Assembly: GCA_009746045.1 (NCBI GenBank)
Contig: RPFO01000692.1
Location: 1,055,082 to 1,119,081, forward strand
DNA length: 64,000 nucleotides
Direction of reading: 5' to 3'
From: Mesostigma viride
Lineage: Eukaryota; Streptophyta; Mesostigmatophyceae; Mesostigmatales; Mesostigmataceae
Shown: one piece after another, positions 5,620 to 63,910 of the stretch
How positions within the stretch are numbered: position 1 is the first letter of the stretch
Layout of the letters: each line of letters starts with the position of its first letter
Translations under genes and position numbers: made by a program
Notes under the pieces: generated by a model
Told to the model about the DNA's origin: nothing
Seen by the model: only the letters and a program-made list of their open reading frames with translations
Databases searched by the model: none

Positions 5620-5623
5620 TTAA

Positions 5624-34427: not shown

Positions 34428-35302
34428 TTAGACAGCTTGCTGAGATGGGTCCATCAGAGACTGAAGAACCTTGTATTGCACTGCTGCCTTCTGCACTAGC
34501 TTGGTCAAAGCATCAGCAGGATTGTCAACCCCATGCAGCAGGGATATGCTCAATATTGGCCAAGGAGGACAATTCCTTAAGAAGGAGATAATCCAAGTCC
34601 CTACTTCTGGCCATCTGCCTGTGCACAAATTGCACCATCCCCATGGAGTCTGTTTTGAGAAGAGTGGTAACCTGAAGTGGCCAAGGAGTGTTAGAAGTCA
34701 TCTGATGAAGCAACTCCTTCAGATAAAGGCTTGTGTGAATGCCTTCACAAATAGCCCTGCATTCTGCCACATCACTGCTGACAGCCACCCGTTTGTGCAG
34801 GCGACTAAACCAGCTCACCAAACTCCCCAGGCCTTCCTGTCTGAGCACAAAGAGCCCTGCAGCCCTGCCCCTGACCTTGGAGACCTGCCTGCTGTCCATT
34901 GAGCTATCCACATACAGCTCCATGCAAATGGGTTGTGATAAATCCACTGCAGACAACAGAATGCCCGATGAAGCCCTGACCTGATCAGCCACCTTGGCAG
35001 ACCCTAGCTCCATCAGCATGTCATCAGGCAACCTGGCTATGACCATAAGGTCTGGCCTGGAAATGCCTGCCACCCAAGCAACCATGCCCCTGACCATAGG
35101 ACACAGTGCCTGTGTGATGGTTGGAGGAAGCTTGCTAATGAGGGTTTCTTGATAATCATTACCCCGACGTGGGGGGCCCCCACCAGCAGCATACGCCACT
35201 CCCCCCCCTTCTTCACCAGTGTGGCCTCCATGCCCACAAACAGCAGAGGCTCATTCTCCACCTGCCATTGCTCCCTACCCAGAGGAAACTTGGACTTGAT
35301 GA
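34428..35302 (-). pseudogene. Element F RT end and RNase H
   Basis: This is the minus-strand continuation of F pol beyond element E. 35302-35150 gives the RT end (LGREQWQVENEPLLFVGMEA). 35199-34525 gives copia RNase H: LYVDSSMDSRQVSKVRGRAA, SSDVAECRAICEGIH and LLKTDSMGMVQFVHR, with acidic residues D, E, D in place. After a frameshift near 34560 the end reads NPADALTKLVQKAAV. It is closely related to C. Confidence 0.8.
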
Positions 35303-35784
35303 AGTTGCAAATAAATGGAATGCGATGTAAATCAGAAAGCATGAAATGAACGTTGTGTTTATTGTTCTCATACGTTATTGTCGTTGCTGCATAATTCGTC
35401 TTCGTTGCGCATATATTCTATTGCGCTTGGCACCTTCATCAGTCTTGCTGAATATCCTACGTGGACATGCATTCCGTGTAGTTCAGTGCATGCCGCGTGT
35501 TAGATACTTCTAGAATCCTCTAGGAGGTACCAAGGCAGATGCGCATACATAATAGGCCGATAGTCGGCTCAGTCCTATTGACAGTACTACACCGGCCCTT
35601 GACCAGCCGGTGACGTGGAGGCCTGGGAGACGCCCACATATTCTACGTGGCGTTATCCCATTGGCGAGTACTAGTGAAGTACAGCCATTGGCCCAATACT
35701 ACAATAAAGTATATTGTAGTAATCTGTACAAGATCCTCTATCTCTGAGGACCCATGTGGACCCTAGATGGGTCTCCAACCAACT
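35303..35784 (-). repeat. Element E 3' LTR
   Basis: 482 bp with AG...CT ends. It is followed (minus strand: preceded) by a purine tract AAGGGAAAGAATGGCTGG. Confidence 0.9.
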
Positions 35785-36052
35785 CCAGCCATTCTTTCCC
35801 TTGTGAAAGTGATAAGGCTTAGATGTATTCATTGATGTTCGGCCGCACCTGGCCAGTTCACTTTCACATATGTGGGCAATGGGGACTCACTTGGGTCTTA
35901 TGGAGTTTGCATCTCATCATTGCATGGTTGGTGTAACCTGCTGTAGGGAAAACCCAAATCTGAAGGAAAACCTCTTCTCCAGAGAGGACAAAACCTCCAG
36001 GGGGATAAAAACCTACAGGAGGAGCATTAGGCTCAGGCTCCCAGATTACTCC
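35785..36052 (-). other. Element E 3' untranslated region
   Basis: Short non-coding stretch between the RNase H stop and the polypurine tract. It lacks the T-arm-like block present in C and F. Confidence 0.5.
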
Positions 36053-39000
36053 TCATGACAAGGGTTTCCCAGCCATCATGGACCGCAGCAACTGGTACCC
36101 ATTAAGGGCCAGTCGTGGAAGCTTGGTCATAGCATCAGCAGGATTTGAGTGTCCTGGCAGATGTATGGTTATACAGTGGCTGGACAACTCCTTTGCCACA
36201 AGGTAGTCCAAGTCAGTAGTAGTGGCCCTCTCATTCTTGATAAAAGAGACCACGGGCTTATTATCACAATAAACCCTGACATCAATCACGGGTTGAGGTC
36301 TTATCTGACTCAGACACCATAAGAGTAGCTCTCTTATGTATATGGCATCGCGAATGCACATGGCGTATGCCCTGCACTCAGCGGTGTCAATGCCAGCAAA
36401 CCGCCTCCTCTGAAGGTTACTGGACCAGTATACCAACGAGGGCTGTTTGCCTTCATTCCTGATGGTGATCAGGCATCCGGCTCTGGCACCAATCTTGTTG
36501 GCAGATCTAGACTCTTGGCTAGCATCTGTGTAGGTGTCTATGATGATGCGCCCATGCCAGTCTACACCGGACAACACCAAGTCAGGAGATTCATTGAGGC
36601 AGCTCTCCAGGCGCCTCCTTCCTTCTCCTACAACAACAGAGTCTGGCATCCTACTCTGTACTGCCAGGTCAGGGTTAGTTGTGGCAGCCAGCCAACCCAG
36701 TTGACCTTTAACCGTAGGGGCATTCTCCTCAGTTACTCTCTTGGGCAACTGAGTTATTACTTTTTCTTTATACCCCTTCGCCGATTGCAGCTTAAGATGC
36801 CATCCTTTGTCATCCTGGAAAAGGGTACAGCCAATGCCACAGTAAGGTACCTGGCTGTTTTTACTAAACCATGCTCTGGTACCAATAGGGGACTTGTCAT
36901 TGAGCCTTTTATAGGTCTCATTCAACCATCCCTTGGGACCAATGCGTTGCATATCATCTCCATGTAAGGTAGCCCAGGTGGGTTGTCCTTTGGATTGCCC
37001 CACAAAGAGACAATAAGCAAGATGAGATTGTTGCATCTGACATCTCTCCTGGATGGCAGGAGCAATGGTTTCATACCAGATGACTGGACTGCTGACCAGT
37101 CCTTCCCAGCCCACTTTAGGCTGCATGTAGGGATGACCTACTTCAGCTATCCAGCATGCTGGGGTCTTAACACAACAGGGTCTTTGAGCTTGCCAAGTGG
37201 CTCTGGCCACCTGAGGATCACCATGCAAAAAGGCCCTGGTGAAGTCATCAATTTCTGCTCCATAATCCAAGCCATAGTCCAAAGCACCAAGGTACAGACT
37301 AAGAATAAGCCTGAGAACAGGATGTGACAGGCCAGGAGTGTACAGCTCCTCCTTATCAAAGTCTGTAGTACCATGGAACTGGGTCACGACTGGACGTGCG
37401 TTTGGTATGGGAGGCTCACCAAGCTTGCTCTTCATCTTGCATACAAAACGCAACTGAAGCATTTGAGCATTGGGTGGAGGTTCTGAAATGCCTTCAAAAA
37501 CATCCAGCGTTTGCCACTCCTGGAGCGCACGCACCAATGCTAGTCGCCAGGCCTCAAGGCCAGCGAAAGTGTGACAATCCAGGTCTACATCATCAAAGGA
37601 CATGGGGCTATGAGCAGCAAATGACCTTTTTGTGAGACCAAGAGAAGTCACACTGAGCTGGGCGGGTTCTACCAGCTCAGAAGCTGGGGGTATATCCCTT
37701 CCCCATTCTGCTCCTTTTACTGAACCGACACAGGCGGTCTTCCAATTTGCCTTCTGGAACATTTCAAGAGGCAAGAGACATCTGAATGATTCCAGAGGAA
37801 TTGGGTCACAATGGGTTTTTAGGAGACTCTTTGTGTTATTGGGGCCATCAACAATGGTAACACCGGGAGTCACCAAGAATGGCTGGCCAATGAGAGTGGG
37901 TCCCTTATAGCCATCAACAACACAAAGTGTCAAAGACTCACCCAAGAATGGGATAGTGATATTCCCAAGAACTTGATGATCAGTGTAACCCGCAAAATCT
38001 TAGACAATAGTCCATGGACTGGGTTCAAGGGAATACTTATCCAGCAAAGCATTAAAGGGCGAGGTGACAGAGACCTCTGCTTTGGTATCCACATCAAAGC
38101 CATCAAGGTCCATGCCCTTCTCTGGAAGAGAAGTTATTGTGGCAATCTTTAGTGAGGGCTTGAGCTTCTTTACAATATCCCGAAGCTCTTGAGGATTGCC
38201 TCTCTTGCCGAGCTGAGTGTTCAACCTGGACAACCCCTCCTCAGCTTGTCTTCCTTGGGCTGGAATCCCATCAGTCTCCAAGGGCAATGGCTTATTACCA
38301 GGGTAATTGGATCCAAGCTTTGGCTGTTCAGACTGAAATATGTTATCCACCTGCCCAGGGGTCTCAAGCCCATGTTCCAACGGCCGGAGCTTCCGGTGCT
38401 GATCAGACACCCTATTATCCAACAAGTCAGCTTCATCCATATCATCCTGTGATATCCCAGTCAATGTCTTAGGCTGAGCTTGCTGAGTAGTAGGCTCCAG
38501 TTGATGGGAGGCCGCCCTTTCTGGTAGTTGGAGTCCAGCCTGTTCACTGGCCAAAGGTGGACAGGAAAGATTGGGAGATCCAAGTGCCTCTTCAGGGGCC
38601 ATAATTTCCAGGGGATTTTCTTGAACGTTCATTGGATCTCTCTTCAATCTATTCCAAGCCAGATGATAAGTGGTCCCATTCCAGACCACATCAGCAGTTT
38701 TCATCTCCAGGTCAACTGAGGTTATGGTCCCTGGACCCTGCCAATAACCACGTTTACCAGGAGCATTTTCTTTGTGGAAGATCACCTGGTCTCCCACCTC
38801 AAATTTTAATGATTCTCCTCTCTGTTTATCCTTTTCACAGAGATGAGCATACTGTGTCCACCTCTGCTTACTCCATGCCTGCATGATGTCATCAGGGTAG
38901 AGGCCACCTGCTAGTCCACGAGGTGAGACCAGCCGTGGAACACCACGCACCTTGATAGTATGAAAACGGTTGTTCATGGTGTTTTCCACTTTTGCAGCAC

Positions 39001-39082
39001 CCAAACACCTGACAGCAAAAGTTGGTTTAAACATCTCAGGATAGTCCCCGGATATTACCAACTTCTTAAGCTCCTGTATATA
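36053..39082 (-). pseudogene. Element E pol: integrase C-terminus, protease-like domain, RT, RNase H
   Basis: Frame 39061-38000: integrase C-terminal domain FEVGDQVIFHKENAPGKRGY near 38800, a linker, then the retropepsin-like start FDVDTKAEVSV near 38080. A TAA at about 38000 falls where C and F have VSDF. Frame 37945-36053 resumes with GPTLIGQPFLV (protease C-terminal strand). RT follows: LRFVCKMKSKLG, LDYGAEIDDFTRAFLHGD, and LHGDDM (plus-strand 36951-36965) in place of YVDD. RNase H: DTYTDASQESRSANKIGAR, DTAECRAYAMCIRDA, YCDNKPVVSF and NPADAMTKLP. The IN-PR-RT order is the same as in C and F. Confidence 0.82.
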
Positions 39083-39094
39083 TCTGTCAACCTT

Positions 39095-39371
39095 AATTAA
39101 TTAATTAATTAATTAAACTCGTGCTCCCGTTGGGGAGTCACGGAGCACCGAAGTGCTTTTAATCCCTGTGTGTGCACTACAGGAGAAAGGGCAGAGACCC
39201 CCAGTCTCCTTCATGCCAAAGGCATGCCACAGCTGCAATCGGGCGCGGCTAGCTAAAAGGACAGGCTAACGATCCGGCAAACTGTGGGTGCAATAAGACC
39301 CATGTGAGCATGTCATAGCAAGGAGCGTGGGCAAGTAATCTGAACATAGCCAGGGCGTAGCATGGCTGTGT
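39095..39371 (-). mobile_element. SINE-like insertion in element E integrase
   Basis: 277 bp flanked by the 12-bp duplication TCTGTCAACCTT (39083-39094, 39372-39383). On the minus strand it starts ACACAGCCATGCTACG and ends with the hairpin GTGCTCC...GGGAGCAC and a TTAATTAA tail. This is target-primed reverse transcription structure. Removing it restores the integrase reading GKVDR-YIQELKKLVISGD. Confidence 0.85.
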
Positions 39372-39383
39372 TCTGTCAACCTT

Positions 39384-40273
39384 GCCTTGGGCTTGGTGAT
39401 CTTCACGACCCACAATCCTTAGGAAAGGCAGATCAGAGTATTTGGTCAGGCAGTTAAACTGCAAGTCCATCTGCAGCTTATGAATAACTGCAAACTTCTG
39501 CAGAATAACAAGAACTGCGGCATGGAGAGTATTCTCATCCCCTGCTGCCATAGGTTCAATTCCAATGTAGCCTGACCATTCATCCACAGCCACCAAGTAA
39601 GGCAATTGCCTGTAATTGGTGAAGTAGAGGATATCAGCTTGTAGATTACCCCTACCATCTGCAGGATGCTTTGCATGACGTTTGGAAGGCTTCAGTTAGC
39701 ACACAATTGGCACACACAATGTTCTCTGACATCTTGATAAGCCTGCCAGAGAGCCTTGTTATTAATGGCTTGAACAAGCCTAATGGCATTGTTTCCATGG
39801 CCACAGGCATCATGCAAACTCTTAGCCAGAGTCCTAAGATTAATACAATCATTAGGCTCAGGCTCTTCAGGACATGGACGGGCATCCACGTTCCTGGCAG
39901 AGCAAGAGTCCAAGTTTTTATTATCAATATAACAAGGATTATTGCTCTGAGGAGCTTGACTGTTAACAATATCAATGGGTGCTTGGCTACAAACAGGAGC
40001 TGCACCACATGTATTGTTCACAGATACGTTGCTCACCTGGGCAACACCATGTGGCATCTGTCTACAACCAGGAGCAGATCCACATGTATTATTTACAGGA
40101 AGAGTTCCCTCTGGGGTACTCTTTTTATTCCAGGCATGGATAGGAATGCCACAAACAGGGGCACTTTTACTGCTGCTCACTGGGGCAGCTTTACGGTCAG
40201 TAGGGGTTACTGCTGGAGCCCCTACCACCTGGCAGGCCTCATCTGCCATGAGTCCACTCTCATCAGCATCCAT
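39384..40273 (-). pseudogene. Element E pol N-terminus: GAG-pre-integrase and integrase core
   Basis: Frame 40273-39692 holds a variable linker, then LAKSLHDACGHGNNAIRL and CVCQLC, the HHCC-like zinc region. Shifted frames 39676-39384 carry the core: LPYLVAVDEWSGYIGIEP, LQMDLQFNCLTKY (second Asp) and EDHQAQGKVDR. The residue aligned with the catalytic Glu of C and F (VER, IER) is Asp here (VDR). There is no protease motif between gag and integrase. Confidence 0.72.
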
Positions 40274-40311
40274 AAGGACGCTGTAGGGGTTATATAAACA
40301 GAGAGGATCAT

Positions 40312-41553
40312 CTAGTTTTTCTGCTGCTGCTTCCTCTTGCGGCCACGAGAGGTATTGCCACCCCGCGGCTGAGAAGCATCACCACCACGCGGCTGGGAAG
40401 CGTCACCACCACGCGGCTGAGAAGCGTCGCCACCACGAAGGGCACCGCTCTTGACGGCTTGGGAGATCTGCTGCAGCAGCTTGAGGACCTCCATCTGGGT
40501 ATCCTTGGGTCCAGCGCCCGCCTTGCTCCTGCAGGCAGACGCATCATGTCCAGAATTGCCACAAGACTTGCACTTGCGAAAGTAGCAATCCTTAGCCAGA
40601 TGGTTAGTCCTATTACAGAAAGTGCAGGGAGGGAAGGACTCAGAATTAGCGACAACCTTACCCTTACATGCGCGGCGTGTGTGCCCGGGCTGCCCGCAGT
40701 TGTAGCAGAAGATTTCCCGTTGCTGCTCCATCACCATGGCGACACGAGGCACCTCCGCGGCACCTCCTTCTCTGGAAACACGGGTTTGATTCGTCAGGAG
40801 CTCCTTGAGGTGAGCTCTGCATCGGTGAGTGTCGCACAGGTAACCGCGGCAGTTGGCGACCAAATTCCGCTTCTCGGATTCGGACAGAGCACAGTTTTGG
40901 ATCCATCGGAGATTCACCGCCTCGTCAGGCCACCGGAGCCCCTGCTTCTCCAGCATGTCGTAGTAAGAGTTGAGGTGCTCGATGATGGTCTGCCCGGGCT
41001 TCGGCTTTGCATCTACAAATTCCTCGATCTCGTCGCAGGTTTTGGCAGTGATAGAACGAAGAAAAGTCTCCCTCGCTCGGCGCAGAAACTCGAACGGCGA
41101 CCACCGCAGACGCTGTGCTCTATCCAGCAGCGAAATCCACTCTGGGTGGTTTTTCTCGCGGTCTCCCAGCGGGGTTCCACGAAGAAACTCCAGCCAGTCC
41201 GGAATGATGTCTCGGTTGCCCGCGAGCCTGCGGAAAAACGGCCCAAGAGAGCTTACAAAGCGATCCCGGTCTGCTTGAATAGCACCAGGCACCAGCGGGG
41301 CTGGAACCCATTTCTTGATTGCCGACAGCAGCTTCGCCTCTTGAAGCAAGGTCTCCCGCCGAAGCACTTTATCACGCGCACGCTGGTTGTCACTACTAGT
41401 ACTTCCCTGCCCGCAGCCCTCCTCCCGGGGCTGGTCGGACATATTCTTATTGTCATCCCTGTGCTCGCCTGGGCCAGGGTCGACAGAAAATTGAGCCGGT
41501 CCGTGCTCACCAGGGCCAGACCTCTGCTCTGAAAGATTGTCGTCCGAAGACAT
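40312..41553 (-). CDS. Element E gag
   Basis: An intact frame of 413 codons from ATG 41553 (MSSDDNLSEQRSG). A capsid-like helical part with IIPDWLEFLRGTPL, WISLLDRAQRLRWSPFEFLR and KPGQTIIEHLNSYYDMLEK precedes three zinc knuckles: CYNCGQPGHTRRAC, CTFCNRTNHLAKDC and CKSCGNSGHDASAC. The C-terminus has a repeated GGDASQPR motif (three times) and a basic KRKQQQK end. Only 13 bases separate the ATG from the end of the 5' LTR, leaving no room for a conventional primer-binding site before gag. Confidence 0.83.
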   Translation of the reverse strand: MSSDDNLSEQRSGPGEHGPAQFSVDPGPGEHRDDNKNMSDQPREEGCGQGSTSSDNQRARDKVLRRETLLQEAKLLSAIKKWVPAPLVPGAIQADRDRFVSSLGPFFRRLAGNRDIIPDWLEFLRGTPLGDREKNHPEWISLLDRAQRLRWSPFEFLRRARETFLRSITAKTCDEIEEFVDAKPKPGQTIIEHLNSYYDMLEKQGLRWPDEAVNLRWIQNCALSESEKRNLVANCRGYLCDTHRCRAHLKELLTNQTRVSREGGAAEVPRVAMVMEQQREIFCYNCGQPGHTRRACKGKVVANSESFPPCTFCNRTNHLAKDCYFRKCKSCGNSGHDASACRSKAGAGPKDTQMEVLKLLQQISQAVKSGALRGGDASQPRGGDASQPRGGDASQPRGGNTSRGRKRKQQQKN

Positions 41554-41566
41554 TGCAATGAATACA

Positions 41567-42048
41567 AGTTGCAAATAAATGGAATGCGATGTAAATCAGA
41601 AAGCATGAAATGAACGTTGTGTTTATTGTTCTCATACGTTATTGTCGTTGCTGCATAATTCGTCTTCGTTGCGCATATATTCTATTGCGCTTGGCACCTT
41701 CATCAGTCTTGCTGAATATCCTACGTGGACATGCATTCCGTGTAGTTCAGTGCATGCCGCGTGTTAGATACTTCTAGAATCCTCTAGGAGGTACCAAGGC
41801 AGATGCGCATACATAATAGGCCGATAGTCGGCTCAGTCCTATTGACAGTACTACACCGGCCCTTGACCAGCCGGTGACGTGGAGGCCTGGGAGACGCCCA
41901 CATATTCTACGTGGCGTTATCCCATTGGCGAGTACTAGTGAAGTACAGCCATTGGCCCAATACTACAATAAAGTATATTGTAGTAATCTGTACAAGATCC
42001 TCTATCTCTGAGGACCCATGTGGACCCTAGATGGGTCTCCAACCAACT
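41567..42048 (-). repeat. Element E 5' LTR
   Basis: 482 bp with AG...CT ends. It appears identical to the 3' LTR, so E inserted very recently. Confidence 0.9.
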
Positions 42049-42053
42049 GATGA

Positions 42054-44698
42054 TGGAGATCAGCTCCTTAAGCCACGACGTGGGAGCCAGCAGGTGCAGG
42101 TCATCCCCGTGCAGCGAAGCATACACTGGTAGGCCTTCCCATTGCCCCAGAAACAGACAGGGGTCTACAGGAGAGACCTTCAAGTTGCAATGCTCCTTCA
42201 GGAAACGGTTGAGAGTCTCCCTCCAGATTATTGGACTTGACCTCAGGCCCTCCAGGCCCTTGAGGATTTTAAGGAACTCAGTGTGAATGTCCCTTTTCCA
42301 TACAGCAGGCACCCTGACATATAGAAAGGCGTCTTGCCCTCCCACTTTTCCTGTGCCACATCTGCATCCCCCTCCAGAAATGCCCTCTTGAAGTCTACCA
42401 CCACTGAGCCATAGTCCAAGCCCTTGTTGAGAAGGCCTAAAAATACACACAGCAGCAGCCTCCAAGTGTCATGCAGCATGCCAGGGGTATACAACTCCTC
42501 AGCAGTGCACTCACCAGTACCCTTGAACTCATTCAGCACTGGCCTGACATGTGGTACCTTGACCCCGTCCACCTCCTTCATCTTGATGACAAACTTGAGC
42601 TTGAGTAGACGCCGTGCAGGAGGCAGGTCATTGACAGGTTCCACGCATTTCTTGGAGATCCAATCCTCCCCAGATTTAATCAGACCCAGTGTGACCTGGG
42701 GACACATAATGGGAGAGGACATGAGCTTCACCAGGCCTTGGTAGTTGATAGGGCTGTGTCCAGCAAGTGAGTGAGGACCAATGCCCAAACTGCTTGGATG
42801 ACTAGCAGCTGGCAGTATGAGGTCATCAACCAAGGGCTCCTGCCCCTGGCACACTTGCACACGCTTAACCGTCCTGGTTACTGCACGTGATAGGTGAGTG
42901 GTCCTGAAACTAATCAGTGGGACCTGACCAGCCCCTTCCTTAGTCAGGAGAGAGGACGTGATCGCTACCCCATCCTGGCATAGGAAATTCTGCCCCAGAA
43001 GAGCAGGTCCCTGATAGCCCTCCAAGACACAAAAAGCAGTGTCCTGTCCAAGGATGGGAATAGATACCTCACCCTGGCAGTACCTTCACGTGTACCCCGC
43101 CACTGAAGTCAGACACAAACTGATAGCTGGGTTCAGTCATGCAGTACCCTGCTGCAGCTCTGGTCCTAATGATGGAAACCTGAGAATTAGTAGTGTCTAC
43201 CTCTAAGGCAGTGTCCAGCCCCAGATTGCCATGCCACCTGAGCTTGGCTACCTTGGGCTGCTTCTTGGCTCTTTGCAGAGCCCCAATCAATCCAGCCAAA
43301 CTAGTCCCCCTGGGCTTGGTTAGAGCCTTGGGCTTGACAGTTGACTCCCCAGCTGTTGACCTTGCAGCCTGTTCAACAAGTACCTCTGCAACCTGGCCAG
43401 GGCTGACAGATTCCCCTGCAACAGATGTGGTCGTTGCGTCAGTGATGTCACTTGGGACCTGAAAATCCTGCAGATCCTGTGAGCCTTGTGCCTGACTGCC
43501 CTCATGCATCAGGTTAGGCTTGACATATGACCAACTCAGCCGGTGTACATGCTTTGGTTCGTCCTCCATGCTGACCAAGCATGCGTGGCTAGCTTCATCA
43601 ACCTGGGTGACCACCCCAGGACTCCAGCTACCACGTTTGCCATAAAGGCTAGGTTCCTTCCAAGCTAATACCCTCTGACCCACTGTTGGCTCCAGCATCT
43701 TCCAACCCCGGTCCTTCTCCCTCAGCTTGGCAAAGGTGACATGTGCAGCATGTTTCCAGCCCTCCAGCACATGTGGGGGGCACAGGCCATGATATAGACC
43801 CATTGGGCTGACAGCAACTCCATCATAGTAGAAATTGACCCTGCTGTTCAGCTGCTGCTCCACGTTCCTCAACCATGCACTCCTGACAAGTGCAGGTGCA
43901 GACAAGGGTACCCAGTCTTCAGAGATGATCAATTTCTTGACCTCCTGGATTGCCCTCTCGATAGCACCCTGCTGCCCATGAGCCTCCCTAGGTGTAACCA
44001 GCAACTCAGGAAGGGTGGGATCACCCTTGAGATGCTGAAACTGCATGTCCACCTGGATCCTTGTGCCAGGTAGGAAACTTGGCTCTTACATTCTGCAGGG
44101 CAGCCAGCAAGTACCTGTTCTTCATAGAAGGTAAATGCTCTAGCACCTTGTACTTTGTGTACCTGTCCACGCACACCAACAGTTGCATGCCCCTGATGTG
44201 TTGGATATCACATTGTAGATCACCAATGCTCTGAGGTAGAGCTTTGGCATGTGATTTCCTGGGCTTGTTGGAGGACAACTGGCACTTTCACCGTGAGGCA
44301 GCTTGCTGGCACGCCTTGAGAAGGGGTGCCCTGCCCATACGGAAGGCAAAGTTGTTTGACAGAGAAGTGGCATGCCCAAACATGTTGTGGATTCGGGCAC
44401 CCAACTCCTGGTACACGGAGGAAGCAGTCCCTGGCACAGTCAGGACTGTGCTGTCAGGTTGTCCAGCATCACCATGCTGACTTCCATCCTGTTCTGACTC
44501 AGAGCCTGAGTCACCCTGCTCATGCCCAACACCTGGACCGCCAGCAGGGACCACATGCATACCACCAGAGGCCTTCACACCCCTCTGTGGTTGTACATTG
44601 GTTTCTCTCAAAATGAGAGGTCCACCCTCGTGCCCAGCACGAGGATGCATGGGGTCAGACATTCTTACAGCTGCACCAGCTGTCAAGGACGTCTTCAC
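42054..44698 (-). pseudogene. Element F pol: integrase, protease-like domain, RT (5' part)
   Basis: Minus strand, several frames. 44698-44288: linker and GAG-pre-IN (ARIHNMFGHATSLSN), ending at a stop. 44278-44052: LQCDIQHIRGMQLLVCVDRY. 44052-43069: integrase with EAHGQQGAIERAIQEVKKL, C-terminal GQRVLAWKEPSLYGKRGSW, then protease start LEVDTTNSQVSII. After a frameshift near 43072, 43025-42243 gives GPALLGQNFLCQDG and RT (LKLKFVIKMKEVDG, SVVVDFKRAFLEGD). 42240-42054 gives RT up to LHGDDLHLLAP (plus-strand 42097-42111). It continues at 35302 beyond element E. The domain order IN-PR-RT-RH matches C. Confidence 0.78.
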
Positions 44699-52800: not shown

Positions 52801-53954
52801 GGACCTTGCCTGACCCCATCATGCCGTGGGATTCTATCATGATGGATTTTGTAGGACCTTTTAGAAAGAATGATAGGGGCAATGCCCAATCCTTGTGTTC
52901 ATAGATCGTTTTACTCGTATGTGCCATCTCGTGCCGTGTCCTTTAGAACTCACAGCACGTGATTGCGCACGCCTATACCTCAATAATGTATACAGATATC
53001 ATGGTTTGAGTAGGCAGTTTATTAGTGATAAGGATAAATTATTTACCTCAGATTTTTGGCAGCAGTTTTTCGCTGCCATCGGTACCAAGGTTACCTACGG
53101 TACTGCCTACCACTCCTCCTCCTCTCATTTAGTAGAGCGTCTTAATAGGGTAGTAGAAGAAGCGCTTAGGCACTATGTTAATGGCTCGGGAAGTGATTGG
53201 GAGGATTATTTATGTTTGGTAGAGTTCTCCCTCAACAATTGTCCCCAAGCTGCGCATGGATATACGCCCTTCTTCTTAGATACTGGTAGACAGCCTCTTA
53301 CCCCTACCTCTCTCTTAGCTAGTCCTCTACGGGACAAGGATGATGTGTCCCGAGATACTGTAGAAGGTGTACAGTCCTTACTAGATAGAATGAAAACTGC
53401 TCATGACCACGCGATCTCAGGGTACCAAAAAGCTCAGTCTAAGTACCTTGCTAGGTTGCGTGCCTCCTTAGATAGAAGAGCACCTGAGATAGAAATAGGA
53501 GATCTAGTATTAGTAGAAGGCCCCCGTGTTGGCCGTTTTGCTCATAAGTTTGAAGCAGAACTTAAGGTCAAACTTAGGCCCGCCTTCTTAGGACCCTTCC
53601 ATGTTTGTCTAGAGTAGGAAATTTCTATATAAAGTCGATATCCCTACCTCTTGGCAGACACATTCAAACACCTTCCATAGGAGCCAGCTGAAACTGTACC
53701 ACCCTAGTACGTTCGCTGGTAGAGAGCTAGCGCCTGCCCCTTTAGAGCATAACCCTGACACTGGGGAAGTAGAAGACGAAGTAGAAAGCATCGTGGCCCA
53801 TAGAGATATCAAAAAGGGCCGCGGTACCCAGCGTCAGTATAAAGTGAAGTGGATGTATGCTCGTAGTGAAGTAGATAAGGTCTGGTATACGGAGAGTGAG
53901 CTAGATGGGTGTAGTCGCCTGCTGCAGGAATATAAAACCCTGCACAAGCTCTAG
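49900..53954 (+). pseudogene. Gypsy B pol: PR-RT-RH-IN-chromodomain, frameshifted
   Basis: Open segments 50003-50836 (protease, VDSGAASSF), 50884-51486 (RT with YLDD at about 51241-51252), 51444-52904 (RNase H into integrase with no break across 52280, unlike copy A) and 52895-53617 (integrase core). The chromodomain end runs to TAG 53952. The same ~28-residue insertion before YLDD is present. Segment 51444-52904 shows that RNase H and integrase are one polyprotein in this family. Confidence 0.85.
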
Positions 53955-55186
53955 TTGTAGGCTTCTCCTCTCTTATGTTATGTCTGCTGTCGACGGGTGG
54001 TTGGTTGTCCCCTCCCCTCCGCAGCCGTCATGTCAGAGCCTACCCCTCCGGCTGAGAGCCCGCTGCCGTCCCTGCCCCTACCGGACCCTGAGCTGTACTT
54101 CGAGGCCCTTCCGGGCCGTTGGGTGTCACGGTCCAGTTATCCGGGTGGCGTCGTGCAGCCGGCCCTCCAGGCCCAGCATGCGGGTTTAGTCAGGGCGGCT
54201 CTCTTCGGGGTCACGTGGTACGGCCCCTCCCCTGCTGAACCGCACCAGCTTGTTTTGCACGGGTTCGATGATGCCGGCCACTGTTTGCTAGAATGTGGCT
54301 CCAGCTGTCCAGCCTTGGGACAGATAGCTGCGGTTCTCCAGTGCCCCAGGGTGTTTTCCTACCTTTCTACCCCTGTGGGCCGCTCCTGCCTACGGGATGT
54401 ATTCCCCTGGCTTCCGGCCGAGGGTGATGCGGAAATAGATGAGAACCCCTGCGACCTTCTACGGGCAGTAGAGTTCATGGAGATAGCAGACCAGACAGCG
54501 GGCGTAGGATTGGGCGACCCTGCTCCTACGGACGCGCCGGTAGAGGCACAGTATTCTCCTGAGTATTCGGCCTCCCCTGCGGCGTCCTCCTCTTCGGTGT
54601 CTGCGCCTTCCCCTGTCCCGTCTTCACCGAGGTCGGTCCTGTGCGCATCGGTGGAGCCTACCCCTTTGGGCTCTGGTCGTGAGCCTGATCCTCTTTCGGC
54701 GACAGTTTCTGCGATGCAGGCGCAGATCCAGTCCCTGACGGCGGCCTTCGGGGCCTTCATGGCGGCCCAGGGCACGCCCCAGCCACGCCAGGTGGGGTTT
54801 CTGCCGCAGCTGTGCCCCCTTCCCCTTCGGTCGCCTCAGCGTCTACGGGTCCGTCTGTGCCGCGCGAGCCCCCGGCGGCTGCGGCTCCCTCTGTTGCTGC
54901 GGCTCCTACGCCTTCGGTTTCCTCTGCGCCTGCTACTGACGTACCTGCGCCTCGGCGCGAGTCCACCGTCCCAGCGGCCGCGCCCGTCGCCGCCGCGTCC
55001 GAGCCGCCCACCACGTCAGCGCCGCCCTCGCGGGGTTTCTTCAGCGACCCGGGCGGTCTTCCAAGGCTTTGGGAGGGCGGTCCTCCGCAGAGGATCCCGG
55101 TGCCTGACTGGAGCTTGGACGGTAACCAGTCGTATGCCGGATTGCCTGTCCCCACGGGCCCTATTTTCAACATGTGGCCTGGTGGT

Positions 55187-55392
55187 AGTTACGTTAAATA
55201 GTGCCGGAACCTTTTGCCGCCTGAGGCAAATCGGTCCGTCACACTATTTTGCCCGGAATAACCACTTCCGAGCACCCAAGTTAATTCGGCCGAATGAACT
55301 TGGGTGCTCGGAAGTGGTTATTCCGGGCAAAATAGTGTGACGGACCGATTTGCCTCAGGCGGCAAAAGGTTCCGGCACTATTTAACGTAACT
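55187..55392. repeat. Palindromic direct repeat, left
   Basis: 206 bp, identical to 55525-55730. Arms are 103 bp with a single mismatch. Confidence 0.95.
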
Positions 55393-55399
55393 AAAACCC

Positions 55400-55440
55400 G
55401 TGCACCTTGGAGGTCAGGGGTTCGAATCCTCACTGAGGCA
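55400..55440 (+). ncRNA. tRNA 3'-half-like sequence
   Basis: The stretch contains GGAGGTC (variable loop), the T-arm AGGGG-TTCGAAT-CCTCA (four of five pairs) and CTGAGGC-A, which would be acceptor positions 66-73. GGTTCGAATCC is a perfect B box. A matching GCCTCAG occurs at 55352-55358 in the palindrome, but no D- or anticodon arm is recognisable, so this is a half, not a tRNA gene. Confidence 0.45.
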
Positions 55441-55524
55441 GCTCCGGCGCATTTAGTGGTGCGTGCTCAGCGGCCTAGGCGGATGTCTCGGGCTCTTCGT
55501 CCCCCCTCCACGAGGCCAGGTTTT

Positions 55525-55730
55525 AGTTACGTTAAATAGTGCCGGAACCTTTTGCCGCCTGAGGCAAATCGGTCCGTCACACTATTTTGCCCGGAATAAC
55601 CACTTCCGAGCACCCAAGTTAATTCGGCCGAATGAACTTGGGTGCTCGGAAGTGGTTATTCCGGGCAAAATAGTGTGACGGACCGATTTGCCTCAGGCGG
55701 CAAAAGGTTCCGGCACTATTTAACGTAACT
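55525..55730. repeat. Palindromic direct repeat, right
   Basis: 206 bp, identical to the left repeat. Followed by GTGGT. Confidence 0.95.
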
Positions 55731-55824: not shown

Positions 55825-56522
55825 AGTTAACGTTCTTAGCACACGCAATGTGAAGGATATGGTTGCAATGCAGCAATGTGTGAATATGGTTGGAAACGGA
55901 GCTTTGTTTAAATTGGATAATGTTACAGCGCTCACACGCTTGAGGCTTGTACACGCGCTTGCCAAGTCAAGGCACAACACGTGAGGCGGGCTCGCAAGAG
56001 ATCTACCCAAATGGCACTGGCCTATTGTTTATATACTTGTGCACTGTGCTTGCTAGTCCTGAGCAACCTAAGAGGTAGGCTCAGTAATAACACCCCCGGT
56101 ACAGTATTCACTACCTGTACAGCGCCCAGTTCCTATACAGTAGTTCTGCCATACAGGCACAGTGACCACAGAGCGCAGTCCACAGTGACTATTGCATCTG
56201 CACCTAGAAGTCCAGGACTAAGCCTGCGGTACCAACAGACCACAGGTTAAGGTTCCTATTTCCTGCGTACGACGTATTAATCCAATACCGTCGTAGGTAC
56301 AGCACCTAATTCCTGTCAGCCCAGGAATTACTGTCGACCCCATATGCTGTCGGCAAATATTCACGTCCGACTTAGAAGAACAGCCGGCTCGCGCTCGCGC
56401 GCGACCGGGAAGTCGGAACGCCATAACTTTCTTGATACTTGTCGGAATGAACTCGTTCCGGTGCCGCTGGAATCGCAGAGATATGCCGAATCAGGAACAC
56501 CCCAATGCGCTTGGCGTTAACT
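55825..56522 (-). repeat. Element C 3' LTR
   Basis: 698 bp with AG...CT ends, adjoining the polypurine tract on its right. Confidence 0.9.
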
Positions 56523-57329
56523 CCAATCCTTTCTTTTCTTGAGCTGTAGCAGCTCACACAAGTCTACATACAAACACACACAATGGGTACTGGACATCCT
56601 CCCCGACTACAAGTCACAACCCACTGGGCATGACAGCCAGCTTGGATTCCTGGACATCCTCCCCGACTACAAGTCACAACCCACTGGGCATGACAGTCAG
56701 CTTGGATTCCTTATTATATGTACATAGCACCCATACTGGTTCAGGAGCACAAACAAATTACAATGAGTCCCTATCCCTTCACGGGAGGCTCGTTGTGTTA
56801 CCCATGTACAAGAGGTTGGCCAACTGTGGCAGCCCATAGGTGTTCAGCTAAGAACTTGAGAAGTATGTACAACCTTCAGGACCTTAGGCGAAACCCCACA
56901 GATCACCCACAACAGCTCATCAGAAAACATTGCTGACCCCCAGACGGGAGTCGGCGCCGGTCTGCTGCCCCTTATCGAACCAGACACAACATCTACGCGA
57001 AGCACATGCAAAACACAAGCTCCCATACTCGTTCCAACCGTGGAAAATCAGGGGACCTGTCGCCACCTCACCAGCATGGTGGATGGGTCAGCCAGTCCGT
57101 GAAACTCCGCCTTAAGACGGCACCAGGGAATCGAACCCCGCCCACAAACCACAGATCTGGGGAAACCTCAGACTGAGATGAAAACCCCAGATAGACATCT
57201 CTCCATCAGAGACAATGTCAGACATTCCCACACCAGAGACATGTCTCACCCCTCAAGGTGTGCTCAGGATTATGTACAATCAAGCTCCCAGCCTGATATC
57301 CAGAGACTTAAGCACCCAGCTCTCAGCTT
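56523..57329 (-). other. Element C 3' untranslated region
   Basis: Contains a 60-bp tandem duplication (56590-56649, 56650-56709) and, at 57122-57143, the 22-bp T-arm-like block shared exactly with element F (32261-32282). I see no ORF of note. Confidence 0.6.
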
Positions 57330-60300
57330 TTAGACAGATAGACCGACTTGACAGTCAGCATTCATGAGCTTCCTCAGTACATTGTACTGGGCTGGGGCCT
57401 TGTGTGGCAGCTTTGTCAATGCATCAGCAGGGTTCTCCTCGCCAGGGATATGCTTCAAGTCAACCAAACTGGCCAACTCCTTCAGCAACAAATAATCCAG
57501 GTCCCGGCTTCTGGCCAGCTGCTTGTGAACAAACTGGACCATACCCATGCTGTCTGTTAGCAACAACGTCTCCATCTGCAAGGTCCAAGGGGTAACTGAA
57601 GCCAGCTCCAGCATTAACTCCTTTATGTACAGGCTGGACTGGATCCCCTCGCATATGGCCCTGCATTCTGCCACATCTGAACTGATACAGACCCTCTTCT
57701 GCAGTCTGCTGTACCAGCTGAACAAACTTGCCCTGCTCTGATAAAAAGCAAACAGAGCAGCAGATCTCCCCCTGACCTTGGTAACCTGGCGAGCATCCAT
57801 GGAACTGTCAACAAAGATCTCCAAGGTGATAGGCTGGGTAAAGTCAATCCCAGACAAAATCAGATCAGGGGTACTCTCCACCAACCGGGCTATGACTCGA
57901 GGCTTCTCATCCTCAAGCACCTCATCAGGCATTCTGCTATGGACCATCAAAGACGGACCACAGATGCTGGCAAACCAGGCCCACATGCCTCTCAACTCAG
58001 GTCCTGCAGCCTGGGTGATCTTCTCTGGCAAGGCCTTCACAATGGTCTGTTTATAATCTCCTCCAGCCTGAAGCCTGATACTCCACTCCCCGTCCCTCCT
58101 GAACAGGGTAGCCTGCATTCCACAGAACACTACAGGCTTGTTGGGCTCCTGCCACAGCTCCTTGCCCAGTGAAAACTTGCCACTGATGACAGGAATAAAC
58201 TTCTTCAGCCAGGTCGTGGGGGCTAGCAAATGCAGATCATCTCCATGCAAACTAGCATACACTGGCAGACCCTCCCATTGGGCCAGCAGCAAACAGGGAT
58301 CAACTGAAGACACTCTCAAGCCACACTCACTGATCAGAGCTTCCTGCAGCGTGAGTCTCCAGATGATTGGGCTCGACCTGAGTCCTTCCAGGCCCTTCAG
58401 AATAACCAGGAATTGTTGATGCAGCTCCAGCTTCCAGATGGCAGGCACCTCAACACAGTAAGGCTCATCCTGCTTCCACACCCTCCTGGCCACTTCTGGA
58501 TCAGATTTTAAAAATGCCCTCTTGAAGTCCAGCAGCACTGATGACATAGCTGCTCCCCTGTTCAGCAACCCCACGTAGAGACATAGCAAAATTCTCCATG
58601 TGTCGTGTAGCATCCCTGGCGTGTATAGCTCCTCTCCTGGCAGACTCCCCGTGCCGTGATACTCATTCAGGACAGGCCTGACATGGGGCACTGATACCTC
58701 ATCCACAACCTTCCTCTTCAGCACAAATCTCAAAGCAAGCTTCCTTGATGCTGGGGGACGTCTGTCTGTTGGTGCAGCACACTCAAACTGCAACCACTCC
58801 TCCAATGCCTTGGAGAAGGCGAGCTTCCAAGCCTCAAACAAAGTAGGCGAGCTCATCTCTTGGACCAGCTGGTCATATGTCAAAGGAGAGTGTGCAGCAA
58901 GGCTCCTGTGAGTTATGCCAATACTGCTGGGGTGCAACACAGCTGGAATCACCAAACTGGCCGCTGGGGGCACCTCCCCTTCATCCCATTTTACACCCTT
59001 GACCGGCTTGGCCCTGCACCTGACTGGAAATGTTGTCCTGAAATTTTCTAGGGGAATCATCCCCCAGCCATCTCTTCTCAGAGCTGTAGCTCTGATAGAA
59101 ATCCCAGGATTGCCCAGAAAATTCTGACCCAAAATCACAGGGCCATCATAGTCCTCTAGGACAAGGAAGGTCACATCCACACCCATGACAGGGGCAGTAA
59201 CCTCTCCCAACACCCTTAGATGCGTCCTACCACTGAAATCAGACACCCAGGGGCAACTTGGTTCTCCGACCAGCAGTTCTCCTGTATGCTGAGGTCCCAT
59301 GACAGAAACCTGTGCATTGGTATCTATCTCCATGGCAGCTACCTCAGGTTCATCCAACTGGACAAGCTTGGACACCTTAGGCTCCTTCTTGGCTCTTTGC
59401 AAAGCCTGTACAATATCTGATAGACGCACACCCCTAGGCCTGGTGTCGGGCCGTTCCGGAGGTGCAGCCTGTCCGCCTGCTTGCCCAACCACCGTATGTG
59501 AAGGTACCCCAGGGGCCGGGCCAGGGTCACCCTGAGGGCTCGATACAGCTGTAGCACCCTGATCAGGAAGCTCCACGTCACCCCCGCCTTGTACACCAGC
59601 GGGCACCTGGAAGAGGTCTCCTTGATTACCTCCCCGGGGACGGATCTTTGACCAGGACAGACGGTGCACTGCTTGGGAGCCATCAATGGCCACCCAGCAC
59701 TTATGGCCAGCGGCTTCTACTCGGGTCACCACCCCATCATGCCAGCTGCCACGTTTCCCTGGAAAGCTTGGTTCCTTCCACACAACAACCTGTTGTCCAA
59801 CGTTAGGTTCTAGGACACTCCAGCCCTTGTCTTTCTGCCTCAGCTTGAGGAACTTGGCCTCTAGCTTCTCCTTCCATGCCTGCTCAGCATCAGCTGGCAG
59901 CATCCTGGTATGCAGCATAAGAGGATTGATGGCAATGTCACCAAAGAACATGGGAGTCCTCAGGTTCAGCCTGTCCTCCACAGAACGTAGCCATGCAGAT
60001 GTCACAATGGCAGATGACGTCCTTGGAATCCTCTCCACCAGCAGCACAGTCTTGATCTCTTGGATGGCTCTCTCCACCACCCCTTGCTGGCCGTGGCTCT
60101 CCCTGGGTGTAATCAGCAACTCTGGAAACTCTGGCAGGTTCTCACAGCACTCAAACTGAATGTCACACTGCAACAACTCCAACCCAGGGTACCTGCTCCT
60201 TGTCAACTTCAGAGCAGCAATCAATGTAGGCTTCTCCATGTCAGGCAGGATCTCTAGGGTCTTGTACTTGGTATATCTGTCCACTGCCACCAGCAGCTTC

Positions 60301-60887
60301 AAACCCCTGATTCTCTGAATATCTACCTGCACATGGCCTGGCTGCAAAATAGGAGTCCTGGCATGAGACTGCTTGGGCTTTCTAGCAACTAGCCTGCACT
60401 TGCAAGCTTGAGCAACCTGTTGGCAGATGGAGTACAACTCACTTCCTCCCAGCCGTCTAGCAACTTGCAAAGACTGAGCTGCATGGCCAAACATGGTATG
60501 CAACCTTGAGGCAATGTCATACAAGAGAGAAAACCTTTTATTGTCATTATTAGCACTCAAGGTATGTACAGATCCCTTATGTACAGGAGGCACCAGGGTC
60601 GTGCCTGTCAGACTGTCTCCAGCCCTATCCTCATCCTGACCATCCTGTGCCAGTCCTGCACGGTCAGAATGCTTCTGAGATCCACCTGGGTCCACATCAC
60701 CAGGTCCTACCTCAGGCTCAGCACCGCCATGGCGGGCACGTTGGCGAGTAACCACTGCAGCTACAGCTGGCATACTCTCTGTGGTAACCAAGCTTGCCCC
60801 ATCGTGTCCAATAGGCTCTTTCACTAGAGCATGGGGCTGCCCCTCACTGCTGTCACTAGCAGCTTCATTACACACCCCTGGGGGCAC
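57330..60887 (-). CDS. Element C pol: IN, protease-like domain, RT, RNase H (1185 aa)
   Basis: Uninterrupted. Residues about 130-175: GAG-pre-IN zinc region (RLHTMFGHA, CQQVAQACKC). About 180-275: integrase core (HVQVDIQRIRG, LLQCDIQFECC, HGQQGVVERAIQE, giving D, D, E). About 355-400: C-terminal domain (VGQQVVVWKEPSFPGKRGSW). About 518-600: retropepsin-like domain with EIDTNAQVSVMG (DTN in place of DTG) and GPVILGQNFLG. About 735-940: RT with LALRFVLKRKVVDE, SSVLLDFKRAFLKSD, LEGLRSSPIIW and ASLHGDDLHLLAP (HGDD at plus-strand 58233-58247). About 1030-1170: RNase H with FVDSSMDARQ, SSDVAECRAICEG, LLTDSMGMVQF and NPADALTKLP. No protease motif precedes integrase. This placement differs from the gag-PR-IN-RT-RH order of known Ty1/copia elements. 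Confidence 0.9.
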   Translation of the reverse strand: MPPGVCNEAASDSSEGQPHALVKEPIGHDGASLVTTESMPAVAAVVTRQRARHGGAEPEVGPGDVDPGGSQKHSDRAGLAQDGQDEDRAGDSLTGTTLVPPVHKGSVHTLSANNDNKRFSLLYDIASRLHTMFGHAAQSLQVARRLGGSELYSICQQVAQACKCRLVARKPKQSHARTPILQPGHVQVDIQRIRGLKLLVAVDRYTKYKTLEILPDMEKPTLIAALKLTRSRYPGLELLQCDIQFECCENLPEFPELLITPRESHGQQGVVERAIQEIKTVLLVERIPRTSSAIVTSAWLRSVEDRLNLRTPMFFGDIAINPLMLHTRMLPADAEQAWKEKLEAKFLKLRQKDKGWSVLEPNVGQQVVVWKEPSFPGKRGSWHDGVVTRVEAAGHKCWVAIDGSQAVHRLSWSKIRPRGGNQGDLFQVPAGVQGGGDVELPDQGATAVSSPQGDPGPAPGVPSHTVVGQAGGQAAPPERPDTRPRGVRLSDIVQALQRAKKEPKVSKLVQLDEPEVAAMEIDTNAQVSVMGPQHTGELLVGEPSCPWVSDFSGRTHLRVLGEVTAPVMGVDVTFLVLEDYDGPVILGQNFLGNPGISIRATALRRDGWGMIPLENFRTTFPVRCRAKPVKGVKWDEGEVPPAASLVIPAVLHPSSIGITHRSLAAHSPLTYDQLVQEMSSPTLFEAWKLAFSKALEEWLQFECAAPTDRRPPASRKLALRFVLKRKVVDEVSVPHVRPVLNEYHGTGSLPGEELYTPGMLHDTWRILLCLYVGLLNRGAAMSSVLLDFKRAFLKSDPEVARRVWKQDEPYCVEVPAIWKLELHQQFLVILKGLEGLRSSPIIWRLTLQEALISECGLRVSSVDPCLLLAQWEGLPVYASLHGDDLHLLAPTTWLKKFIPVISGKFSLGKELWQEPNKPVVFCGMQATLFRRDGEWSIRLQAGGDYKQTIVKALPEKITQAAGPELRGMWAWFASICGPSLMVHSRMPDEVLEDEKPRVIARLVESTPDLILSGIDFTQPITLEIFVDSSMDARQVTKVRGRSAALFAFYQSRASLFSWYSRLQKRVCISSDVAECRAICEGIQSSLYIKELMLELASVTPWTLQMETLLLTDSMGMVQFVHKQLARSRDLDYLLLKELASLVDLKHIPGEENPADALTKLPHKAPAQYNVLRKLMNADCQVGLSV

Positions 60888-60920
60888 CCTCCAGGGTTCA
60901 GGGATGTGTGCAGGCTCAAG

Positions 60921-62107
60921 TCAATGATCAGCAGCCTTGCCCTTGCCCTTGTCCTGGGATGGACCAGCCTTGTCCTTGCTGCCACCCTGAGCTGGCTTGC
61001 TCTGACCTTCCTGCCTCAGGTACGAGGGACACTCATTCCTGAAGTGACCCTTCCCCTGGCAGAAATAACATTCCACCTGACTGATGTCCCGTGAGGTCCC
61101 ACTGCTGGGCCCAGCCTTGGGAGGACCACCCACCCTCTTGAAGTCAAACTGGGACTGTGGATGTCCCGACTTCGGCGGGGTCCCCCGTCCAGCCCTTCTG
61201 TCACGCCCCCTCCTGGACCTTCCTCGACCCCTTGAAGAGGTCTCAGGCCCTCTCGAGGGCGCTGGGCCCCCGTGGCCCGATCCCCTCATGGACTTAACCG
61301 TGGGTTCAGTGGCCTCCTCATCACCCTGACGAGGGCGCTTACCACCCACGTACTTGCCGCTGAAACACTCATACAACTGGTCCGTCATGGCTGCCCAGCC
61401 ATGGACCTGTCGCATGTGGATGGTCACATTATCCATGGTGACCGGATCCAGCTGCAGCGACTTGAGAAAGTCGCCCATGGCCATCCGATCTGCGACGAAG
61501 AAGCCCTTGGCCATGGCGTCCTCCCTCAGCTTGACGAAGTCTTCAAAGGCGTGGACCACTAGCTGCCCCTTGATGGGCTTGTAGTCCAGGTATTCTTGCT
61601 TCAGGTGGGACCCATCTATGGTCCTCTTGTCACTCAGGAACACCTGAGTCGCGTCATAAACGCCGCCCAGGTGTCCCCCGCCGCGTGTCGCTCCCGAACA
61701 AACTTGAACAGCCGCCTCGCCGACTGCCGTATGTAGGCACTAGACGCCAGGATGCGAAGCTTGTCACCGTTGTATATCTCCGTGTACAAGTTCATGTCCT
61801 CTAACATCCTCTCAGCATCCCGGGGCTGCCAATTGTCCTTGATGGACTGAAACTGGCCTAGCACCGCGTACCCCTCAGCCACGGTCGGTCGCTTAGGCGC
61901 CGCTTGATCTGCGGCTGGCGCGTTCTGACCGCCCTGCGATCCTTGGCTCTGATTATCTGGCACCTCAGCCTGGTCTCCCAGCGCCTGGCCGTCCCCGCGT
62001 CCATCGCGTCCACCGCGTCCATCGCGTCCATCTCGTCCATCCATCCCAGCGCCGCGCCGCGCGAAGCCCATAAAGCCCGCTTGTTGGTTGATAGCTCCAT
62101 CATCCAT
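60921..62107 (-). pseudogene. Element C gag, one frameshift
   Basis: Frame 62107-61634 starts MDDGAINQQAGFMGFARRG, with a DGRDGRGG-type repeat, then SIKDNWQPRDAERML and ARRLFKFVRERHAAGDTW. Frame 61643-60921 continues QEYLDYKPIKGQLV and VHGWAAMTDQLYE, an RG-rich stretch (SRGRGRSRRGRDRRAGRG), the zinc knuckle CYFCQGKGHFRNEC and a Lys/Gln-rich end. The frames overlap at 61640, so one base change would join them. Gag ends 34 bp before the first pol codon, in a different frame. Confidence 0.75.
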
Positions 62108-62566
62108 GATGGCCTCTGTTCAGATCTGCTACAGCCAGCCAAGTGGCCAAGCAGCAATTAAAGCAATATAAGCTACTGAACAAGAAAGGAAAGTGCCAAG
62201 TGTTACCACTCAGGCAAGACCACCACGGCTGGCCCCAGGCGCGTCCTGGTTCTCCTTGTCGCTGTCGTCGTCGCTGTCGCTCACCACAATCAGCTCTGGT
62301 ACCCTGCTACCTGCTGCGCCGTCGTCGACCCGCTGTCGGCCCGCGATGACTGAATCGTCACCGTTGGTATAGTAGACAGGTGACAACCCGTCGTTGGCAC
62401 CCGCGGATTGTATCTTGGCACCTCGTGGTCGCCAAGTGTCTCGTCGCCTAGCCCAGCGACACCCCCTGCTCCCACCTCAAGGTCACTATCGTACCCAAGA
62501 GGTGCAAACTCTTCCCAACGCGTCACACGAACGCGAAGGGGCGGGGCAGTTCCTGAAAAGGAACTC
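62108..62566 (-). other. Element C leader, gag-proximal part
   Basis: On the minus strand, frame 62526-62290 (MTRWEEFAPLGYDSDLEVGA) may continue the upstream leader ORF after one frameshift. Otherwise no gene is recognised. Confidence 0.4.
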
Positions 62567-63124
62567 TTACTCGCTCCGGAAACCTGCCGACTCTTGCCGC
62601 GCGCTGTCCTCCGGTGATGGCTTCCGCTGTCGCCCCGACCTCTGCAAGCCGCCTGTAGTGCTCCGCTCCGCGTCGTTCACGCCTAACTGGCCCGCTGCAA
62701 CACCCTCGTCGCCGATGACGCCTGCGAAAGCACGTGGTACCCGCACCCGCTGCTGTCGGTACAAACTCGTGTCGCCCTGCGCCAGCTGCCTCCGCAACCT
62801 CGCCTCGCCTTGCGCCAACTCCGTCCGCACTCGCTCAGCTACTGCTGTAATCACCGTCTGGATGCCGACCAAACCGTGAAGCTCCTGCTCGAGGTCGTCG
62901 ATGCTCCGGTGCTCCGGAATGACGATGGTTTGTACGTGTCGCAGAATTCGCTCCCAATCTTCGACCTGGTCGTCGACGAATTGCACGAAGCTGCGATTAA
63001 CAGGCGGACGATCTGCAAGCAATAAAGATAGATCCCGAACGACACGACGCAATTCAGGCGAAATCGAACCCCCAGCAGACTGCCGAAACCGGAAATCCTG
63101 CTGCCGTTGTTCTTCCTGCACCAT
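62567..63124 (-). CDS. Element C leader ORF (ORF0), unknown
   Basis: 185 codons between the 5' LTR and gag, same strand. It has Asp/Glu/Arg-rich helical sequence suggestive of coiled coil (VDDQVEDWERILRHVQ, SIDDLEQELHGLVGIQ, RVRTELAQGEARLRRQLAQG). I recognise no family and find no counterpart in E, whose leader is 13 bases. It could be an N-terminal gag extension or an additional protein. Confidence 0.42.
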   Translation of the reverse strand: MVQEEQRQQDFRFRQSAGGSISPELRRVVRDLSLLLADRPPVNRSFVQFVDDQVEDWERILRHVQTIVIPEHRSIDDLEQELHGLVGIQTVITAVAERVRTELAQGEARLRRQLAQGDTSLYRQQRVRVPRAFAGVIGDEGVAAGQLGVNDAERSTTGGLQRSGRQRKPSPEDSARQESAGFRSE

Positions 63125-63217
63125 TCACCACCGGACGAGCTCCTCGCGTCGTCAACGCTGCACACCGCAACCGGCAACGACCCTCCTGGCCGTTCCGCTG
63201 AGACTGGTTGTAATTTG

Positions 63218-63910
63218 AGTTAACGTTCTTAGCACACGCAATGTGAAGGATATGGTTGCAATGCAGCAATGTGTGAATATGGTTGGAAACGGAGCTTTGT
63301 TAAAATTGGATAATGTTACAGCGCTCACACACTTGAGGCTTGTACACGCGCTTGCCAAGTCAAGGCACAACACGTGAGGCGGGCTCGCAAGAGATGCCCA
63401 TTTGGCACTGGCCTATTGTTTATATACTTGTGCACTGTGCTTGCTAGTCCTGAGCAGCCTAGAGGTGGCTCAGTAATAACACCCCGGTACAGTATTCACT
63501 ACCTGTACAGCGCCCAGTTCCTATACAGTAGGTCTGCCATACAGGCACAGTGACCACAGAGCGCAGTCCACAGTGACTATTGCATCTGCACCTAGAAGTC
63601 CAGGACTAAGCCTGCGGTACCAACAGACCACAGGTTAAGGTTCCTATTTCCTGCGTACGACGTATTAATCCAATACCGTCGTAGGTACAGCACCTAATTC
63701 CTGTCAGCCCAGGAATTACTGTCGACCCCATATGCTGTCGGCAAATATTCACGTCCGACTTAGAAGAACAGCCGGCTCGCGCTCGCGCGCGACCGGGAAG
63801 TCGGAACGCCATAACTTTCTTGATACTTGTCGGAATGAACTCGTTCCGGTGCCGCTGGAATCGCAGAGATATGCCGAATCAGGATCACGCCAATGCGCTT
63901 GGCGTTAACT
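63218..63910 (-). repeat. Element C 5' LTR
   Basis: 693 bp with AG...CT ends. It differs from the 3' LTR by several substitutions and small indels. Followed by the GTTGT duplication. Confidence 0.9.

Follow-up and report, generated by a model that had tools for sequence, protein, structure and literature searches.

The described systems closest to the element reported here are the Ty1/copia and Ty3/gypsy LTR retrotransposons and the elements Gmr1 and REM1, the latter from Chlamydomonas. An excerpt of PMC10025401 gives the order of Ty1/copia as protease, integrase, reverse transcriptase (RT) and RNase H, and that of Ty3/gypsy as protease, RT, RNase H and integrase. Gmr1 and REM1 are, according to an excerpt of PMC2774666, gypsy-type elements with a moved integrase and a copia-like order. 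We analysed a window of 64,000 nucleotides from Mesostigma viride (assembly GCA_009746045.1, contig RPFO01000692.1, positions 1,055,082 to 1,119,081), numbered here from 1, and one of its elements, C, is a new order variant of LTR retrotransposon, with integrase, protease-like segment, RT and RNase H in that order (IN-PR-RT-RH). Among the titles and abstract openings listed by literature searches of open-licence PubMed Central papers, none described this order.

Element C has in common with Ty1/copia its LTRs, a 5-bp target duplication, a CCHC gag and an integrase ahead of RT-RNase H. However, its protease-like segment comes after the integrase and not before it (orders from the excerpt of PMC10025401), its RT has no Pfam match, its RT box reads H-G-D-D and its LTRs end in AGTT...AACT; C was not filed in Ty1/copia because of the difference in order. 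With Ty3/gypsy it shares a protease-like segment directly ahead of RT-RNase H, but the integrase of C stands in front, not at the end as in the gypsy order of that excerpt, and Pfam readily recognises the gypsy elements of the window and not the C lineage. An integrase-first order with the protease adjoining the RT is also not what the excerpt of PMC2774666 describes for Gmr1 and REM1.

Layout of element C and its pol frame

The features of C are as follows, with residues counted in the pol frame.

55825..63910, minus strand: LTR element C, whole, with the 5' LTR at the right end
63218..63910, minus strand: 5' LTR
55825..56522, minus strand: 3' LTR, preceded by a purine-rich stretch
60921..61643, minus strand: downstream part of gag with a CCHC zinc knuckle (Pfam zf-CCHC, E 7.1e-05, above cut-off)
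60921..60923, minus strand: TGA between gag and pol, in frame with both, ending the zinc-knuckle part of gag and followed by CTTG
57330..60920, minus strand: open pol frame, listed from the GTG at 60887 (1185 codons)
60528..60887, minus strand: residues 1-120, gag-integrase spacer without a protease match
59958..60506, minus strand: residues 128-310, integrase zinc region and catalytic core (D189, D242, E272)
59628..59870, minus strand: residues 340-420, integrase C-terminal domain, Tudor/Agenet-like (Pfam Agenet, E 0.00048, below the curated cut-off)
59430..59627, minus strand: residues 421-486, poorly conserved linker (27% identity with F; without alignment to E)
59088..59345, minus strand: residues 515-600, retropepsin-like segment, from profile searches and conservation
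59313..59324, minus strand: D522-T523-N524-A525, putative active-site motif
57933..58910, minus strand: residues 660-985, RT, assigned by motifs, with the H-G-D-D box at 881-884
57393..57860, minus strand: residues 1010-1165, RNase H, assigned by motifs and conserved in E and F

The two LTRs are 98.0% identical over the 698 columns compared, and the 5-bp repeat GTTGT flanks C on both sides as a target duplication. These direct terminal repeats and the target-site duplication, together with the zinc knuckle in gag, are those of an LTR retrotransposon. An open stretch in another frame (62107-61634) is probably the upstream part of C gag. The usual LTR ends are TG...CA, and both C (55825-63910) and E (35302-42048) end in AGTT...AACT. 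Just outside C, at 55187-55730, lie repeats some 200 bp long, both inverted and direct, with 98-99% identity.

The sequence-only reading had described a single frame of 1185 codons in C, leaving its strand unstated. This frame was found on the minus strand from 60887 to 57330, uninterrupted, and the chance of a frame as long at this base composition is P ~4e-25. The domain order claimed for it was also recovered, as the D, D and E integrase motifs are followed by the linker, the retropepsin-like segment and then the RT-like and RNase H-like stretches.

The boundary of gag and pol was surveyed over 1500 upstream bases in 30 copies fetched from the genome. The TGA lies 11 codons ahead of pol codon 1, as in C of the window, in 25 of the 30. 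In 9 of the 30, the pol frame read upstream meets no stop for more than 300 codons; in the other copies gag is broken or in a different frame. Pol may be made by UGA read-through in the copies that carry gag in the pol frame, and this is offered as a suggestion because the long upstream opening is present in nine copies and gag is elsewhere out of frame or broken.

The integrase triad of C is spaced by 52 residues (D189-D242) and 29 residues (D242-E272). A profile search of the PDB with the integrase returned 75 sequences at E up to 10 (best E 0.011); among the best 60 of these 75, 59 were integrase, integrase-fusion or Pol chains and the other was the UHRF2 protein, aligned to the C-terminal domain. 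Pfam rve matched at E 0.035, below its cut-off. The PDB matches and the D, D, E residues are those of a retroviral-type integrase, and the lineage is, by the weakness of the scores, very divergent, so that low scores are the rule even for its undoubted domains. The Agenet/Tudor chromatin-reader resemblance of the C-terminal domain raises the possibility that it is a targeting module.

The RT of C is 38% identical to that of E and 54% to that of F. No Pfam, NCBIfam or PDB match was obtained for the RT and RNase H of C, and RVT_2, the Ty1/copia RT family, gave none at E <= 10, in a divergent lineage and with filters that drop weak matches. The earlier description of the lineage as copia-like has on its side the RT and RNase H motifs, which look copia-like, but no sequence match in Pfam, NCBIfam or the PDB names the RT.

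The same order in elements E and F and in genome copies

Two further elements of the window resemble C, and a tblastn search with C pol gave 27-37% identity per piece for E and 41-68% for F.

35302..42048, minus strand: element E, nested in F, with 483-bp LTRs that are 100% identical
42046..44419, minus strand: element F, from the integrase to the first part of the RT
37826..38140, minus strand: protease-like segment of E, with D-T-K-A, broken by a TAA at 38002-38000
42933..43239, minus strand: protease-like segment of F, with D-T-T-N, split over two frames

The rest of the F RT and the RNase H lie at 35300-34449, on the other side of E. Element E sits within the RT of F, which matches C as far as residue 902 (position 42046) and picks up again from residue 901 (position 35300); E is flanked by a 5-bp GATGA repeat if its LTR start is set at 35303. 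Both pol genes are broken, that of E by frame changes, a repeat in the integrase and the TAA within the protease-like segment, and that of F by an integrase stop, frame changes (one in the protease-like segment) and the insertion of E in the RT. The two elements had been said to share the order of C, and the tblastn pieces bear this out, as integrase, linker, protease-like segment, RT and RNase H are colinear with C in both. The repeat in the E integrase is an insert of about 270 bp (39098-39368), with similar stretches at 13547-13629, 13865-14012 and 5620-5740, and the LTRs of E are still identical.

Nested repeats abound in the window, E inside F being one, and an element inserted in another could produce a false order. 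This reading of C is exceedingly improbable. The frame of C is uninterrupted, E and F keep the same linear order, and an uninterrupted, 100% identical C pol protein is encoded at no fewer than 39 further places in the genome (440 Mb in 2243 contigs). These 39 were scored among 10,171 first-look candidates, and none is on the contig of the window. The insertion artefact was rejected, as the genome copies refute it.

In the 30 fetched copies the pol DNA differs from that of C in the window by 0 bases (one copy), 1 base (20), 2 bases (8) or 3 bases (1). Dozens of near-identical copies indicate a recent burst of the C family, and the D-T-N-A form thus belongs to a mobile family. The copies of the burst do not count as independent evidence of selection, and they are compatible with help in trans. 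Relatives of the C lineage were not found in the scans of IMG/VR or GTDB, and IMG/VR was also empty for the copia RT pattern and for the gypsy pol of the window.

In the rest of the window, two chromodomain gypsy elements (20531-31335 and 46469-55181) are 92% identical, and the first has long open frames after its integrase (27975-29153 and 29117-30301) to which Pfam matches nothing at E <= 0.1. At 32428-34231, two 422-bp direct repeats that are 99.5% identical and 1383 bp apart may form a short non-autonomous LTR element. A low-complexity tract at 1643-2846 holds several open frames with long His/Arg or Pro runs. Searches for Rfam families and tRNAs found none.

The retropepsin-like segment between integrase and RT

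The sequence-only reading had also held that no protease motif lies between gag and integrase. We sought D-S/T-G in all minus frames of C, of E and of part of F, and ran Pfam on the gag and spacer pieces. From the zinc knuckle of gag to the integrase of C, D-S/T-G is absent from every minus frame, and Pfam gave no match at E <= 10 on the spacer (residues 1-120). Upstream of the knuckle, C has two more D-S-G, in an open frame of 128 codons other than those of gag and pol. The only D-S/T-G between knuckle and integrase in E falls in a 3-codon opening of another frame, and the one D-S-G in frame before the integrase of F belongs to an acidic, Ser-rich stretch without a protease family match. The motif and Pfam checks of C, E and F thus gave nothing credible, in agreement with the claim. 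The three diverged elements have inherited the integrase-first order and carry no recognisable protease upstream of the integrase.

The motifs quoted earlier for C, E and F were all located, those of C being D522-T-N-A-Q-V-S-V and G-P-V-I-L-G-Q-N-F-L. In the 1185 residues of C pol, D-[S/T]-x-A occurs at 522 and nowhere else. The corresponding motif is D-T-K-A in E and D-T-T-N in F, so that Asp and Thr are retained in all three. The consensus of the retropepsin active site is D-S/T-G-A (PMC6952103, excerpt), and its Gly is replaced by Asn in C, Lys in E and Thr in F, which the sequence-only reading had not pointed out. Because this Gly is absent, we named the segment retropepsin-like and not retropepsin.

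Of its 86 columns, the segment of C aligns with that of E in 69, at 42% identity, and with that of F in 84, at 43%. Its dN (Nei-Gojobori) is 0.52 for C-E and 0.41 for C-F, compared with 0.69 and 0.48 for the RT and 0.94 for the linker (C-F), values usable as a ranking alone since dS is at or near saturation. On this comparison of sequences, the segment is under purifying selection and constrained no less than the RT.

A retropepsin fold that no longer cuts could also be conserved in this way, as a dimerisation or spacer domain, with processing by a host protease, by one provided in trans, or none at all. The segment is indeed conserved despite the loss of a Gly that the consensus in the excerpt of PMC6952103 includes, and help in trans is plausible because the pol of E is broken while its LTRs are identical. 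Nevertheless, we consider this reading, the leading rival, unlikely, as the Asp and Thr kept in C, E and F would be needless in a dead domain and no other protease was found in any of the three. The segment is most likely an atypical acting protease.

The identity of the segment was examined by profile searches. A trimmed profile of four pieces matched 10 PDB sequences at E up to 10, and all 10 were proteases of HIV-1 type. Half of them carry the label "HIV-1 protease"; the remaining five are named simply "protease" but share the 99- or 203-residue design of the others and match over the same region. The best E, 0.042, sums both tandem copies of a tethered dimer; a chain with a single copy reached 0.14 at best. 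With longer flanks, five of five matches were again proteases of HIV-1 type (best E 0.12). The reversed profile matched five unrelated proteins (best E 0.23) and the column-shuffled profile one protein at E 0.83, not an HIV-1-type protease. As the retropepsin hypothesis preceded the search, we infer that the uniform identity of these matches outweighs their E-values. The gypsy protease of the window, taken as a yardstick, had a strong Pfam match and a single PDB match at E 0.65, so a genuine protease may well score in this range against the PDB. The segment profile matched that gypsy protease at E 0.3 and 0.53, not significant.

Pfam gave two matches for the C segment, an unrelated DUF at E 0.084 and gag-asp_proteas at E 0.11, and none for the other three segment pieces. 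Among ten scrambled controls (nine shuffles and one reversed sequence), two found some family at a comparable E; no retropepsin family was among the matches. The profile search against retropepsins proposed earlier thus gave gag-asp_proteas for C, ranked below an unrelated DUF.

The PDB match spans the half from the flap to the C-terminus; the active-site half, including D-T-x-A, is not covered, and D-T-x-A stands 26 residues ahead of the match in C. The retropepsin identity claimed for the segment stood to the extent of a sub-significant but specific profile similarity, and not for its active-site half. In common with retropepsins, C has D-T-x-A followed by a half, from flap to C-terminus, with similarity to HIV-1-type protease profiles; it differs, with E and F, in having Asn, Lys or Thr where the active site has Gly and in matches below significance. 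Two fold predictions had low confidence (mean pLDDT 35.6 and 52.5), and VIA and Foldseek searches with the second model listed other folds and no retropepsin.

These weak E-values and low-confidence models, with other folds alone among the hits, would also fit another beta-rich domain, such as a connector of integrase or RT, that resembles a retropepsin by chance in a lineage without its own protease. We find this unlikely, as the PDB matches are all of one type with and without flanks, unlike those of the scrambled controls. Moreover, C has 65 residues from the motif D to the Gly of L-G-Q, near the spacing of HIV-1 protease, where the corresponding distance is about 61.

Meaning of an integrase-first order

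We propose that the segment would fold as half of an aspartic-protease dimer, in which D522-T523 from two chains would make up the active site and Asn or Lys would take the position usual for Gly. It would cut Gag-Pol so that integrase is freed upstream and RT-RNase H downstream. Element C functions in the manner of LTR retrotransposons, and the putative step in which it would cleave its own polyprotein is the most likely one. We hold it about evenly balanced that C represents a recently active LTR lineage whose polyprotein comprises gag, integrase, a retropepsin-like protease, RT and RNase H.

As a tentative possibility, IN-PR-RT-RH may be a third stable pol architecture of LTR retroelements, in which the integrase leads a gypsy-like PR-RT-RH and the protease has an active site without Gly. 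The order could be an intermediate that links those of copia and gypsy.

One standard criterion for telling copia from gypsy is domain order. A lineage that has the integrase first and the protease beside the RT would escape or mislead automatic classifiers, as no Pfam RT model matches C. It would also let the origin of the copia and gypsy orders be tested. If it works, a D-T-N or D-T-K protease would test the need for the active-site glycine of aspartic proteases.
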